Shown here: one piece after another, positions 3,776 through 17,177 of the stretch | How positions within the stretch are numbered: the first letter of the stretch is position 1 | Layout: each line of letters opens with the position of its first letter | Origin: a virus | Length of the DNA stretch: 24,605 bases | IMG/VR virus record: IMGVR_UViG_3300022413_000037 | Span: 1-24,605 of that record | Direction: 5' to 3' (one strand) | Notes under the pieces: generated by a model | What the model saw: only the letters and a program-made list of their open reading frames with translations | Database searches by the model: none | Told to the model about the DNA's origin: nothing | Translations under genes and position numbers: made by a program

Positions 3776-4705
3776 TTACGGCCCCCCGGCGATAGGTGCC
3801 AAGGGCCGTTTGAACTGCATACGGTCGGGCTGCGGCGGTATTCCTCGTAAAAACGAGTTTGTGAATGGGTCCGCGTTCGCGTCGGGATCGTTGTTATTTA
3901 TCTGCACGCCGAATTGTCTGGCGATTTGCCCAATGACTTCGATTGTGCCAAATAATGGATTGCCGACACGCAAAATGAAAGCAAGCACTTCAGCGATGGA
4001 CGTACCGTTTTTTTCCAAAAACGACGATATGCCACCTAGCACTACGAGAGCTAGGTCAATGAACGGTTCCAGTTTCTGTGATAACTGCAGCAAAATATCC
4101 AAAATCTGCGTGCCGATATCAAACATCTGGGTGGCGGCCTGCTGGCGTAAGTTCTCAAATCTCGCTAGTCCTGGGCCGATTTGCTGAGCTCGCCTCAGCT
4201 GTGCGAACTCTCGACGGATGCCACCGATCGCCTGAACTGCTGACAACTCGGTCGACAAGCCGGCCAAGTCGTTAGCATTCCTTTGCACTGCACCGACGAA
4301 TGCTTTAAGCGCGAGTGCAGTTGCGCCTAGCGCGCCTGTTATCGCGATTGACGCGACGCCTACCGGCCCCGTGATCGCCGCCAATGCGGACGACGCAACT
4401 GCCGCAACACCACCGACATTGCCTGCCGCGATCGCAGATATGCCACTTACCCCAGCTTGTGCGGTTCGTCGAGCCGATGCTAGTGATTGGTTTCTGCGGT
4501 CGAGCGGAGTAAAGGGCGGGGGTTCAATAGGCGGCGGTATTGGGATCGATCCGGGAACACCCGGGATTACACCTGGAACGCCCGCGGTCGATGACGTTGC
4601 AGATGCGGGAACCGACGGTGACGTACCAACAGGCGGCGCAACTGGTGCCGTCGCTGGAGGCGGGCCACCTTCGTCCGTAACAATGATCCTGAGTTCTTCG
4701 GCCAT
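3776..4705 (-). CDS. Hydrophobic Ala/Gly-rich tail protein, possible short tape measure protein
   Basis: This protein has 309 residues. Residues ~14-70 are Pro/Ala/Ser/Thr-rich and probably disordered. About 75-140 are Ala/Gly/Val-rich and strongly hydrophobic (AAIAAGNVGGVAAVASSALAA), like the membrane-active stretch of tape measure proteins. About 140-215 are helical with Gln/Arg/Leu heptad-like spacing, and ~200-265 carry two further hydrophobic helices. Tape measure proteins set tail length and enter the host envelope at DNA delivery. Its place just after the tail tube candidate and its hydrophobic helical make-up support that role. At 309 residues it would imply a very short tail, so it may be only an accessory internal tail protein. 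It starts 2 bases after the upstream stop and ends 3 bases before the next gene. Confidence 0.45.
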   Translation of the reverse strand: MAEELRIIVTDEGGPPPATAPVAPPVGTSPSVPASATSSTAGVPGVIPGVPGSIPIPPPIEPPPFTPLDRRNQSLASARRTAQAGVSGISAIAAGNVGGVAAVASSALAAITGPVGVASIAITGALGATALALKAFVGAVQRNANDLAGLSTELSAVQAIGGIRREFAQLRRAQQIGPGLARFENLRQQAATQMFDIGTQILDILLQLSQKLEPFIDLALVVLGGISSFLEKNGTSIAEVLAFILRVGNPLFGTIEVIGQIARQFGVQINNNDPDANADPFTNSFLRGIPPQPDRMQFKRPLAPIAGGP

Positions 4706-13286: not shown

Positions 13287-13602
13287 TTCTTCCCGGCTCC
13301 TGTGTATTGGCGAATTCCTGCAATGCAGAGCCGCCGATGAACTTCTTGATCTCCGACAAGCGAATGCCGAACGTCCCTCCAGGCAATGGTCCTTCATACT
13401 CCATCAATCCATCTTTAAGCCACCTGGCGACCGTCTGATGTGACTTCCGGAACATCCTCGCCGCCTCCGTGATCGTCACCAGCGGATTGGACTCGCTCAT
13501 CTCCGAAAACTGCTCGACCGGGTCCGCTTGCGCCGGCGGGTGGCATTCTCCGCATGACGTTTGTGTATTCGACCTAGCCCTCGTCGCGCGTCTTTTGGCC
13601 AT
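13261..13602 (-). CDS. Small DNA-binding protein with excisionase-like helix-turn-helix
   Basis: The start is the ATG at 13602 (MAKRRATRARSN), preceded by AGGTGAGG 5 bases upstream, an excellent site; the upstream ATG at 13620 lacks one. The product has 113 residues. Residues 1-10 are basic, and CGEC at 17-20 could be half a zinc site. Residues ~42-90 (LVTITEAARMFRKSHQTVAR, then a wing and RLSEIKKFIGG) match the MerR/excisionase-type winged helix of the HTH_17 kind. It follows terL directly and overlaps the next virion gene. It may be a regulator of late genes or an accessory to terminase packaging; small terminase subunits also carry HTH domains, so a TerS role is possible though the position after terL is unusual. 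Confidence 0.65.
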   Translation of the reverse strand: MAKRRATRARSNTQTSCGECHPPAQADPVEQFSEMSESNPLVTITEAARMFRKSHQTVARWLKDGLMEYEGPLPGGTFGIRLSEIKKFIGGSALQEFANTQEPGRNGDSNTSE

Positions 13603-13619
13603 CTGTTCCTCACCTGTCA

Positions 13620-16600
13620 TTAATTGATAACACCACCCCACGGCTGACTGCGCGTCCCCACATGATGGGCCGCATAAGAACAGACGTCAACTTGATCTGA
13701 CGTCTGTTCAGGCAATCCCGTCCACCCCATGAGTTCGCCTTCGAAGTCGGGGAGCCATTCGGACACGCCCGCTACGCTTTCAATATCTGGCAGGAAAAAC
13801 CGGCCCTCAGCGATCATTGACAGTAATCCTGACGCCACTGCACGCTCATGTTTTGCCGAGTCGGTCATTGTCTCCTTTATGCCTTTAATCTTTGTTGGTG
13901 CCAGCTTTATGCGTGTTTTGACAAGTTTCTTCAAGTCCGCCGCGAGCGGTTGGCCGTGGTGTGCGTTTTCGATCACTGTGACCGGAACCGCCCATTTTGT
14001 CAGGACCTTGGCAATTTGCGTCTTTAGGTCCGTGTATCCTACCCGCTCGCGCCATATGTGGCGCAAATGCAGGAACTTCAGCTTAGAGCAATAATCCCAG
14101 ATCGCACACACCGACCACGATGACGGCCTACCGCGTAGCTCTGCCGCTTTCTGTTTGCTGGTGCCCGCCGTGTCGATCGTCGCGAAACGTTTTAACATCG
14201 TCGGTGGCGTCGCTGTATCGCATAGATCGGCCTTTGTTTTTGTCATATTCACAATCGATTCGCCCCCGAGCAGCCTGAAGTACCTAAAGTCACCAGGATC
14301 GATAATCGCGCCCTCGATGACCGACCAATCGCCGTTCGCGAGCCTGGCCGCGAGCTGTGCCCCTAGCTTAGATTGCAAGCGCTCGATGTATTCGTCAATT
14401 TCGATTGACGGATTATCCGCAACTCGAGACGGCATAAACATAGCACCCGTAGGAGTCTCGAATACCAGGTCAGGCGGAGAAGGGTCCCGGGCGTTGAATC
14501 CCCTGAGTGCCTGGATTGCCTCCTCGGTGACGAACCGCCTCTTTACCCATATGCCTCCGATGGGATTGGCCGCTGACCTCATGCCGCAAGGGATCGGGTA
14601 GCCTTTCGTGCGACGCAAACGACTGAACATATAGGCATATTGCGACTCACTGAATCCCTCAACCTGGTCGACGCAATTTTGGCATACGGTGTAACCCGAT
14701 ACAATGAAGTGTGATGCCTCTTCAACAGTCAAATCCATCAGTTCCGCCTCACCCGCTCGGACCATTTCTCCGCAAGCCTGGTGGACGTCCTCGCAAAGAC
14801 GTAAAGGTCTGGTCGTGTAGGGGTGGAGCGGTTTATATCGGTCGAGGGTATGCGTTTGAGTATTGCCCTGATCATCCCGAAGCGTCAAAACGCGGTTGTG
14901 TTTCCAAGCACCGGCTTGTGATGGAATGCGTCCTTGGTCGGCTACTGAAAAGGGGCGAAGTGGTCCATCACAAAAACGGGGATCGTCTGGACAACCGGCC
15001 AAGCAATATTGAACTGCATACCCGGAGTTCCCATGGGAAAGCTCATGCGGATGAAGTTCGGAAACGTTTCCAGATTGAGCTAACTGAGTCCCAGGTCCGA
15101 AAAGCATTAAAGGAAAGGACCACGAAGCAAGCCGCTCAGCTGCTAGGTGTTCATCACCAGACTCTGCGTAATCGCTTCGATCATCTATTGTCGAAACGTC
15201 GAGGCACGAACGCTCCCCTAGCGCCTGACCTGGAGCGCCGCCTGCGCCAACTAGCCCACGATCCGATGGTGTCGTGGAGTGCTGCCTGTAGGGTTCTTGA
15301 TACATGTCCTCAGAGTATAAGCAACTGGCTGAAGGTGACCGGCATACGATGGACCGCTGCTCCGACGGGCAGACCCAGCCGAACGGCGTAAGCATCCGAT
15401 GGGAATCGCTACATAGCGCCGATCCGTAAGGTGTCGTAACGCGAACAACCGGTTTCCGGCCCATGTTCCATAGTCGCGTGACTGCTCGTGGTCCCTCAAG
15501 AGTCTGCACGTAATCACCGACCCGTATCTGATGAATCGCGAGCCATGACCCATCCGCCATCAGTACCGGTGTTGTCCTCTCAACACAAATCCGATGAAAT
15601 TCTGTCCCATCGTAGTTGTGCTTGTCGTTCTCGTGCTGCATCGATCCGAAGCGGATCATTGCGCCGTTCGGGAACGTCCAGACCTTTTTACTGTCGTTGA
15701 ATATGCCGTCCCTGACCTTGAAAAAGCGATACGATCGCTCTACGGGTGTCGTTGGTGATCCTTGTAGCTGTGGCATCGTACGGCGCAAGAACAGCCCGCT
15801 GAACCCAGGATACTGGATGCCCTCTTCAAGCCAGCGAATGAGCACTTCGGTGTTGTGGGTGACTATGAAATCCCTGGTGACATAAAGACCTCGTGGTCCG
15901 GAAACCTTAATGCACACTGATTCCTGCGGCTCAACTTCAGTTATTGAAACAACCTCCCTGCTCAGCTCTGCGCCGCCATTCCACGAATCTGTGCACCTTT
16001 CGATCTTTTTTGTACACCGAAACATCGCAGAATTTCGCCTGAGCCAGATTCGAACTTGATACGATGGACGGCCATCCTTTTTGTCGCCCTTATACGTGAA
16101 TCTTGTTTGCCGATCTCGCAACCTAGCCTTACCGCCAAGTGACCTAGCGAGTGCCTGAACGCCCTCGGATAGCTGTCGGCTTGTGCTTATGAAGTAACAA
16201 CGACCGCGTTCATCAGCGGTTCCGCCGCTGTCCATGAGTCCTTGGAGGAAATGAAGCCGGTATTCGACTGACGAAGTGAATACGTAGGAAGGGATGAATT
16301 TCTCCCACGACCTACATTTCGTCAGTCCATGGTTTTTCAGCCACGCTCGAACTAACTTTCCGCATTTGCCGGTCGCTCGGTATGTTTTCGGAAGGCCGTC
16401 TTTGTGCAATTCAGCGTGCGGACTGAAGCCAGCCGCAATGAGTTCCGCCCTCACGTCATTATCGCAAGCCGTCACTGTCGCACCACGTAAATGCCCGTCA
16501 CCAATTAATATCCCTGCGATATAAGGCGAGACTAAACCCTTACCCGTGCGACCATTAGCGGTGAACGAGATTGGTTCAGAAAGTGGTATCCTCGGTGGAG

Positions 16601-17177
16601 TTCCACGTTCAAGGAAGGATCGCATCTCGTCCGTGGTGCCAACCCGCAAAGTGTCCCACCGAGTCGTCGGAGTCTCGGCACCAAGATGCTGCGTTGCAAA
16701 CTGACGTTGCTTGCTATGTTTAGTTCCTGGGCGCTTGCGACCTACGACGCGATACGCCCACAAATGCTCCGCCCCAACAAAGGTGGATGCGCCGTCGTCG
16801 CATGTGACTTTCCAAATCCTTTGGACTCCCTGCGGAAATACACCGATAACCCGTTGACTGCCTCCGGTCGTCGGGTCAGTAACGGAATCACCAACTCTTA
16901 GTGACCCAATTGCCCCCCACCCCTTTGGTGTGAGCACAGGCTCCGATAGTGGCATCAACTTTCCGCCCCCGAGCGCGCCGCCGAACATCGCCTCTTCACA
17001 GGTCAGGTCAAGGAACTCCTGTTGGCGACGGTGCGGCGGGTCAATTCGATGCTTGGTCACCAAGCGGCTGGTCAGCTGTCGCGTCGATTCCGCGTCGGGC
17101 GAGCTGGTCATCAATTGCCGCAAGGACAGCAGCGAACTCGGGGTCATCGCTGCCAGTATGCTGGTGTCGATGTCCAT
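13620..17177 (-). CDS. terL: Large terminase subunit precursor with two inteins
   Basis: The reading frame has 1185 codons; removing two inteins (residues 74-442 and 531-834) leaves 512 residues, a normal terminase size. Large terminase is the ATPase-nuclease that cuts concatemeric phage DNA and pumps it into the prohead through the portal. Walker A is GGALGGGK (66-73) joined to T443 after splicing. The Walker B region is EFHRI (526-530) joined to CVDQVEGFSESQ (835-846). The RNase H-like nuclease shows D1002 (TIDTAG), E1070 (VIEN) and D1164 (DQVDVCSY). The start at 17177 overlaps the upstream gene by 137 bases and has GGAG 10 bases before; starts at 17147 and 17111 are possible. Because both ATPase motifs are interrupted, the enzyme should be inactive until both inteins splice. 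Confidence 0.93.
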   Translation of the reverse strand: MDIDTSILAAMTPSSLLSLRQLMTSSPDAESTRQLTSRLVTKHRIDPPHRRQQEFLDLTCEEAMFGGALGGGKLMPLSEPVLTPKGWGAIGSLRVGDSVTDPTTGGSQRVIGVFPQGVQRIWKVTCDDGASTFVGAEHLWAYRVVGRKRPGTKHSKQRQFATQHLGAETPTTRWDTLRVGTTDEMRSFLERGTPPRIPLSEPISFTANGRTGKGLVSPYIAGILIGDGHLRGATVTACDNDVRAELIAAGFSPHAELHKDGLPKTYRATGKCGKLVRAWLKNHGLTKCRSWEKFIPSYVFTSSVEYRLHFLQGLMDSGGTADERGRCYFISTSRQLSEGVQALARSLGGKARLRDRQTRFTYKGDKKDGRPSYQVRIWLRRNSAMFRCTKKIERCTDSWNGGAELSREVVSITEVEPQESVCIKVSGPRGLYVTRDFIVTHNTEVLIRWLEEGIQYPGFSGLFLRRTMPQLQGSPTTPVERSYRFFKVRDGIFNDSKKVWTFPNGAMIRFGSMQHENDKHNYDGTEFHRICVERTTPVLMADGSWLAIHQIRVGDYVQTLEGPRAVTRLWNMGRKPVVRVTTPYGSALCSDSHRMLTPFGWVCPSEQRSIVCRSPSASCLYSEDMYQEPYRQHSTTPSDRGLVGAGGAPGQALGERSCLDVSTIDDRSDYAESGDEHLAAERLASWSFPLMLFGPGTQLAQSGNVSELHPHELSHGNSGYAVQYCLAGCPDDPRFCDGPLRPFSVADQGRIPSQAGAWKHNRVLTLRDDQGNTQTHTLDRYKPLHPYTTRPLRLCEDVHQACGEMVRAGEAELMDLTVEEASHFIVSGYTVCQNCVDQVEGFSESQYAYMFSRLRRTKGYPIPCGMRSAANPIGGIWVKRRFVTEEAIQALRGFNARDPSPPDLVFETPTGAMFMPSRVADNPSIEIDEYIERLQSKLGAQLAARLANGDWSVIEGAIIDPGDFRYFRLLGGESIVNMTKTKADLCDTATPPTMLKRFATIDTAGTSKQKAAELRGRPSSWSVCAIWDYCSKLKFLHLRHIWRERVGYTDLKTQIAKVLTKWAVPVTVIENAHHGQPLAADLKKLVKTRIKLAPTKIKGIKETMTDSAKHERAVASGLLSMIAEGRFFLPDIESVAGVSEWLPDFEGELMGWTGLPEQTSDQVDVCSYAAHHVGTRSQPWGGVIN
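14676..15587 (-). mobile_element. Intein 2 of TerL: class 1, 304 residues, no nuclease in its own frame
   Basis: This corresponds to residues 531-834 of the precursor. Block A is CVERTTPVLMADGSWLAIHQ and the following IRVGDYVQTL, with Cys1. Block B is GSALCSDSHRMLT with the key His at intein residue 63. Block F/G is DLTVEEASHFIVSGYTVCQN, ending in Asn304, with Cys at +1; the penultimate residue is Gln instead of the usual His, a known but less common variant. The stretch from ~67 to ~280 has no LAGLIDADG or other nuclease motif in this frame and low-complexity, shadow-like sequence. That same stretch is occupied on the other strand by an HNH endonuclease gene. The frame stays open throughout, as terminase synthesis requires. 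Insertion is in the Walker B region, between Ile530 and Cys835. Confidence 0.88.
14711..15391 (+). CDS. HNH homing endonuclease encoded antisense inside intein 2
   Basis: The gene has 226 codons (GTG at 14711 or ATG at 14714), on the opposite strand to terL. Residues 22-31 contain a GGRPRK AT-hook-like core. Residues ~35-62 carry a CRGG...GRGY...CPDHPEA lead-in. Residues 64-112 are a clear HNH_3-type domain: KHRLVMECVLGR, GEVVHHKNGDRLDN (His86-His87), RPSNIEL and HGKAH. Residues ~124-160 (SQVRKAL...QAAQLLGVHHQTLRNRF) and ~185-212 (SAACRVLDTCPQSISNWLK) look like two helix-turn-helix units for site recognition. It ends opposite intein residue 66, just past block B, and begins opposite block F, so it fills the usual endonuclease slot of the intein but in reverse. 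Expected role: cutting intein-less terL alleles to drive homing. A weak GAAG is the only ribosome site seen. Confidence 0.88.
   Translation: MMPLQQSNPSVPPHPLGPFLRKPGGRPRKDVKVWSCRGGAVYIGRGYAFEYCPDHPEASKRGCVSKHRLVMECVLGRLLKRGEVVHHKNGDRLDNRPSNIELHTRSSHGKAHADEVRKRFQIELTESQVRKALKERTTKQAAQLLGVHHQTLRNRFDHLLSKRRGTNAPLAPDLERRLRQLAHDPMVSWSAACRVLDTCPQSISNWLKVTGIRWTAAPTGRPSRTA
15852..16958 (-). mobile_element. Intein 1 of TerL: class 3 (WCT), 369 residues, with LAGLIDADG domain
   Basis: This corresponds to residues 74-442 of the precursor, inserted between Lys73 and Thr443 of the P-loop. The first residue is Leu, not Cys or Ser. Block B is GAEHLW (His at intein 65, Trp at 67), block F has Cys349 in QESVCIKVSG, and block G is DFIVTHN with Thr367 before His-Asn. 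Trp, Cys and Thr in these places are the WCT signature of class 3 inteins, where the block F Cys starts splicing. Residues ~145-305 hold a dodecapeptide endonuclease: motif one YIAGILIGDG has its Asp154. Motif two FLQGLMDSGG has Gly245 where the metal-binding Asp is expected, so cleavage activity is probably lost or altered. The +1 residue is Thr. Confidence 0.88.

Follow-up and report, generated by a model that had tools for sequence, protein, structure and literature searches.

An intein in a viral terminase gene with a putative homing endonuclease encoded on the antisense strand

In the textbook view, an intein combines a splicing domain and a nuclease within one reading frame. The terminase large subunit (TerL) gene in IMG/VR record IMGVR_UViG_3300022413_000037 raises the question of whether an intein can instead carry its nuclease as a separate gene on the opposite strand. 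The 24,605-nt virus stretch analysed here (positions 1 to 24,605 of that record), hereafter the window, contains a TerL gene interrupted by two inteins (Table 1). The original prediction held that intein 2 has splicing blocks at both ends of one open minus-strand frame devoid of any nuclease, and that a complete HNH endonuclease gene is read on the plus strand between these blocks, opposite intein residues 66 to 293. Comparative data from more than 100 loci support the reading of this element as an intein with an antisense endonuclease gene. We put at about 0.86 the probability that intein 2 is mobile and that a separate antisense gene, not an in-frame domain, encodes its homing endonuclease, with splicing, expression and cleavage being inferred.

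Table 1. Features of the TerL gene, its two inteins and the antisense HNH gene (window coordinates; slashes mark insertion points).
Feature	Coordinates	Strand	Basis
terL, terminase large subunit, two inteins	13620..17177	-	single 1185-aa ORF; PHROG TerL families
Intein 1 (369 aa), Walker A (GGGK/T), class-3-like, in-frame LAGLIDADG	15852..16958	-	Hom_end and LAGLIDADG_3 matches; class 3 by eye
Intein 2 (304 aa, TerL aa 531-834), directly before Walker B	14676..15587	-	alignment, structure model, fold search, empty alleles of relatives
Intein 2 N-terminal splicing segment (residues 1-80; C1, block B His63)	15348..15587	-	pLDDT, invariant residues
Intein 2 linker, mostly disordered in model, open but little constrained	14841..15347	-	pLDDT; codon-position test on relatives
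Intein 2 C-terminal splicing segment (residues 250-304; HPYT, block F Asp285/His293, Asn304)	14676..14840	-	pLDDT 83-97
HPYT motif of intein 2, faces S-C-R-G-G of HNH	14814..14825	-	kept H[PF]Y in relatives; present in HNH-less mini-intein
Antisense HNH endonuclease gene, 226 aa	14711..15391	+	Pfam HNH_3; PHROG HNH families; relatives
HNH catalytic domain (residues 66-109; H67, H86, H87, N95, N99, H108)	14906..15037	+	Pfam; invariant columns, 30 sequences
Two helix-turn-helix-like units (residues ~126-160, ~172-210)	15086..15340	+	weak Pfam HTH matches; model helices

The extein junctions of intein 2 (GTEFHRI/CVERTT... and ...YTVCQN/CVDQVEG), together with its alignment with related inteins, agreed with the predicted splicing element. 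Intein 2 meets the criteria of a class 1 intein, with Cys1, a block B His, a block F Asp, a C-terminal Asn and Cys+1, and C1, H63, H255, Y257 and D285 are invariant in 23 aligned intein sequences. The C-terminal Asn is replaced by Gln in some relatives. An AlphaFold2 model built with 23 inteins gave pLDDT values of about 94-98 for residues 1-70 and 83 for residues 71-80; residues 1-80 and 250-304 were mostly above 90, and most of residues 83-247 fell below 50, a short segment at ~150-165 excepted. Foldseek matched this model to the DnaB, gp41-1, PI-SceI and RecA inteins, thereby satisfying the criterion of a Hint fold, and an intein sequence profile matched PI-SceI and DnaB. At the level of sequence and model, these results confirmed that intein 2 retains an intact splicing domain, from which splicing itself is inferred. 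A Pfam search of the TerL protein returned no nuclease match in the frame of intein 2, which fails the canonical criterion of an in-frame endonuclease, the nuclease lying on the plus strand instead.

The penultimate residue of intein 2 is Gln303. A penultimate His is common in inteins; it is absent from the entire group of inteins inserted at Walker B, and four of these (L011, L053, L056 and L067; L numbers are locus labels used in this analysis) have a terminal Gln followed by Ser or Thr. Intein 1 has the look of a class 3 intein, without an N-terminal nucleophile and with a block B Trp, a block F Cys and Thr+1. The second LAGLIDADG motif of intein 1 is LMDSGG, compared with LMDTDG in the L282 homologue, so its nuclease may be missing one catalytic Asp. 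L282, a relative of L006, has an intein-1-like intein at Walker A, and its Walker B site is empty, indicating that inteins at the two sites assort independently.

The plus-strand ORF opposite intein 2 begins with GTG, with an ATG one codon downstream. It matched Pfam HNH_3 (E 5e-13) and several PHROG HNH endonuclease families, and its position opposite intein residues 66-293 is as predicted. An HNH motif with conserved catalytic residues, encoded by a gene located inside a mobile unit, satisfies the criteria for an HNH homing endonuclease. The structure model (mean pLDDT 84) has strands and a helix in the HNH region and a helical C-terminal half that, as modelled, is consistent with two HTH units; together with weak Pfam HTH matches, it supports the two DNA-binding units expected there. 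Of the AT-hook-like element that had also been proposed, only a GRPRK motif near the N terminus could be recognized. The best PDB match of the model was the homing endonuclease I-HmuI, a weak one (E 0.13, probability 0.69), and no solved structure related to the HNH protein by sequence was found. The HNH gene was also predicted to share its bases with an intein linker. The linker is indeed overlapped, but the first ~45 HNH codons additionally overlap the C-terminal splicing segment, including the conserved HPYT motif and block F. HNH codon positions 1, 2 and 3 lie opposite intein positions 1, 3 and 2, respectively, a register that is not the direct-complement phase.

A first search of IMG/VR with the HNH protein showed that 12 of 12 full-length or nearly full-length relatives are antisense in TerL inteins, with both frames open. 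Wider alignment-based searches yielded 284 HNH ORFs, 114 of which face a long opposite ORF, and profiles of the intein N- and C-terminal blocks placed nearly all of these 114 loci inside inteins. When an open frame was not required, 105 HNH loci from IMG/VR and two MAGs (one Verrucomicrobiota contig, one Phycisphaeraceae contig) were flanked by opposite-strand intein blocks. Both blocks lie in one frame in all 105 loci, in the same codon phase throughout, and the interval between them is free of stops in 104; the exception, L059, has six stops and is either a decayed copy or a locus with weak block matches. Stops in the used phase amounted to 0.03 per 100 codons in antisense-intein loci versus 3.9 in 177 other HNH ORFs, while the other two phases differed little between the two sets. 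An artefact of GC content was rejected as the source of this strand phase, given the register described above and the density of stops that other HNH genes carry in it.

Removal of near-duplicates left 79 inteins, most of which occupy three sites: before Walker B, in the P-loop directly before [ST]GK, and in the P-loop after GK. The stop codon of the HNH gene lies within the intein in all 79, as does the start codon of the window copy. To avoid sampling based on HNH, we also assembled a second sample by intein alignment alone. Among its 54 distinct inteins, a scan of the opposite strand revealed an antisense HNH in 43; five have a loose in-frame LAGLIDADG pattern and are found at other sites or in other genes, one is a mini-intein, and five are unclear. 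The prediction would have been refuted if related inteins at the same site all lacked the antisense frame, and the outcome was the opposite, nearly all of them having it. As judged from sequence comparisons, the architecture is real, conserved and recurrent.

Several observations concern the distribution of these genes. In L142, L080, L106 and L097, antisense-HNH inteins sit in the P-loop of proteins that do not resemble TerL and are, by eye, SMC/RecN-like, clamp-loader-like or helicase-like. L035 and L039 (by block profiles) and L030 (by eye) have an HNH of the same Pfam type in frame on the sense strand; both HNH orientations therefore exist in inteins. Some seemingly free-standing HNH genes, such as that of L054, sit at the end of a contig and could be members that have been cut short. 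Searches of named phage isolates with four HNH proteins and three inteins as queries, and of a collection of phages that includes actinobacteriophages, gave no HNH under a terminase gene among the matches listed. The TerL intein of Mesorhizobium phage Cp1R7A-A1 is at a different position and LAGLIDADG-like by eye, and the HNH profile detected no antisense HNH in it.

The relative search found no TerL close to that of the window, so the tests of empty alleles and divergence rest on relatives. Empty sites are present in TerL genes with C-exteins matching that of L006 at up to 98% identity, which makes the insertion point exact; for the relatives of L006, precise in-frame insertion with empty homologues is thus satisfied, and L276 offers a natural sequence of the empty site. 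When TerL genes with inteins were compared pairwise, the insert was in most cases far less diverged than the host gene, up to about 25-fold at the freest positions. Third positions differ by 1.7% in the HNH gene versus 42% in the exteins of L127 and L137, by 1.4% versus 29% in L099 and L100, and by 7% versus 50% in L182 and L183; the pair L125/L134 is an exception (15% vs 15%). Even in the 450 bases next to the insert, third-position divergence of the flanks is high. Such a contrast between insert and flanks is what recent homing into diverged genes would leave.

These data bear on the possibility that a free-standing selfish HNH gene landed antisense in a pre-existing mini-intein, which would serve merely as a safe harbour for a nuclease not adapted to the intein site. 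Related free-standing HNH genes are common in phages, and L029 has an antisense HNH (3818-4345), again in this phase, within a DNA methylase insertion where no intein blocks could be detected. A natural mini-intein of 151 aa without the HNH region also exists at the Walker B site (L368:613-1065). Its alignment with L376 indicates that most of the region of the antisense gene is missing while HPYT is retained, so that the intein core seems not to need the HNH segment. Nevertheless, HNH clades track the insertion site. On an HNH tree of 168 rows, built from few columns and weakly supported, the three sites of the antisense members require only 5 changes, and the clustering of each site group greatly exceeds that obtained with shuffled labels, a pattern compatible with every HNH lineage having its own cleavage site, although such cleavage is inferred. 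The excess similarity of the insert over its flanks in several pairs, with high divergence so close to the insert, likewise fits cutting at or near the intein site, and the single phase and the placement of the HNH stop inside the intein in all 79 cases also count against a mere harbour. We regard this alternative as unlikely.

Which of the two overlapping frames is under selection was examined in 13 pairs of close relatives. Substitutions in the overlap numbered 138/129/400 at HNH codon positions 1/2/3. The corresponding counts were 65/57/234 at intein positions in intein-only DNA outside the HNH gene and 322/166/1111 in the exteins, both being the usual pattern. HNH is thus the constrained frame in the overlap, since substitutions concentrate at its third position. 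Substitutions that are silent in HNH and change the intein occurred at 2.27 times the neutral expectation, versus 0.58-0.67 times for those that change HNH. By this test, the HNH frame is under purifying selection. When HNH codons were shuffled synonymously, 471.8 stops were expected in the intein frames of the 79 inteins and 0 were observed; for the window copy, 7.06 were expected versus 0 observed, and zero was reached in 0 of 20,000 shuffles. The substitution and shuffling patterns indicate that the main constraint on the intein frame in the overlap is to remain open. At HNH position 3, the rate was 0.140 in the linker and 0.056 over the C-terminal splicing segment, where both frames are, on this evidence, held. 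H[PF]Y is retained in 22 of the 22 Walker B inteins listed, and the facing HNH residues vary (SCRGG, RYKDA, PSRDV).

Shine-Dalgarno-like sequences precede 78 of 275 in-frame HNH starts versus 92 of 544 out-of-frame starts (Fisher p = 1.2e-4). At the HNH start of the window copy, no Shine-Dalgarno sequence of at least 4 bases was found, and a promoter scan of positions 13600-15700 revealed no promoter-like site on the plus strand. Expression of this copy is therefore unproven, and synthesis of the nuclease independently of terminase expression remains an inference. The HNH gene could be a relic, or unexpressed, with the intein moving passively or by means of another nuclease such as that of intein 1. 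The lack of a promoter and of a strong ribosome-binding site in the window copy is compatible with this scenario, yet purifying selection acts between close copies, the HNH frame is uninterrupted in all of them, and transfer between diverged TerL genes has been recent. We find it hard to reconcile a relic with these observations and consider it very unlikely. Finally, chance does produce long antisense ORFs in GC-rich DNA, and antisense ORFs in another phase and without intein blocks lie over HNH in L190, L079, L091 and L023, but a chance frame, or an HNH frame arising as the by-product of a linker that is a real domain, can be discarded with near certainty given the HNH_3 match, the catalytic residues invariant in 30 sequences, the coding-type substitution pattern, the stop counts and single phase in 105 of 105 loci, the shuffling test and the mostly disordered linker model.

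Ordinary intein homing driven by the antisense-encoded nuclease is then the most likely mechanism. The terminase strand would be translated into a TerL precursor in which the N-terminal segment, the disordered linker and the C-terminal segment of intein 2 form a Hint domain, and intein 2 would be excised by class 1 chemistry through Cys1, the block B His, the block F Asp, Asn304 and Cys+1. The opposite strand would yield a stand-alone HNH nuclease that binds DNA through HTH-type units; this protein is expected to cleave or nick terL copies without the intein close to their Walker B codons, and repair from an intein-bearing copy would insert the intein and the HNH gene together. We propose that the linker exists because the intein frame must avoid stops while the opposite strand encodes the nuclease. 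Sequence data alone establish the two frames, their conservation, selection on HNH, stop avoidance, the empty alleles and the excess similarity of inserts; that intein 2 splices, that the antisense gene is transcribed and translated, and that its product cleaves DNA at a particular target are inferences from them.

We lean slightly towards the view that antisense-HNH inteins form a single, old and successful mobile class, in which a single capture event placed an HNH gene between the two halves of an intein, antisense and in one phase. The composite would subsequently have reached three or more sites, one at Walker B and two in the P-loop, in TerL and other phage ATPases, with a layout that uncouples nuclease expression from the host gene while both genes share codons. 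The deep forks of the HNH tree are unresolved, so a single origin is neither shown nor excluded. A widespread class with an opposite-strand nuclease means that the splicing and nuclease functions need not share a polypeptide, and makes the timing of nuclease versus host-gene production through antisense expression a testable question. These inteins also offer one of few natural examples of a long antisense gene pair whose overlap is complete and in which selection can be measured on both frames, and they supply many new HNH nucleases whose targets are probably phage packaging genes. Our results suggest that intein surveys restricted to the host frame would score them as endonuclease-free.

The original prediction knew of no established antisense endonuclease in an intein, and none was found in the open PMC full texts, the only literature covered. 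A preprint on actinobacteriophage inteins of "non-canonical architecture" (Gosselin et al. 2025, bioRxiv 10.1101/2025.01.02.630785), which by its title concerns unusual intein layouts and is cited in PMC11855218 for overlapping frames, was outside this scope and may bear on novelty. Mycobacteriophage TerL inteins occupy several sites in the ATPase domain (Kelley et al. 2016, PMC5050341), and intein 2 resembles these in its location within the ATPase domain of TerL; a term search of that paper found no antisense arrangement.

Canonical homing-endonuclease inteins such as PI-SceI carry a LAGLIDADG or HNH domain in the intein frame. The class of intein 2 shares with these inteins the Hint domain, the placement of nuclease information between blocks B and F, the insertion at conserved ATPase motifs, the existence of empty alleles and the signs of lateral transfer. 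Unlike these, the nuclease of intein 2 is a separate protein from the opposite strand, and the in-frame segment between blocks B and F is mostly a disordered linker.

The ShiLan-type insertion, found in a phage DNA methylase, hides an HNH gene on the strand of the host gene itself, and no splicing domain could be detected in it (Arsenault, Gosselin and Gogarten 2025, PMC11855218). As in intein 2, the HNH lies in another frame, the host frame is left open and the host is a phage. In contrast, the HNH of intein 2 is antisense and its host frame contains complete intein blocks, so that the criterion of a ShiLan-type insertion is not satisfied. The L029 insertion is perhaps the antisense counterpart of the ShiLan insertion.

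Antisense endonuclease genes are known from group I introns, for example L2066 of Didymium squamulosum, for which antisense expression has been shown (PMC9548176). L2066 and intein 2 both have a homing endonuclease gene antisense within a self-splicing element. L2066 differs in being an rDNA RNA intron with a His-Cys nuclease in a peripheral segment, and because of this location there is no second protein-coding frame to keep open. In intein 2, the host frame stays open across the insert and is bounded by intein blocks.
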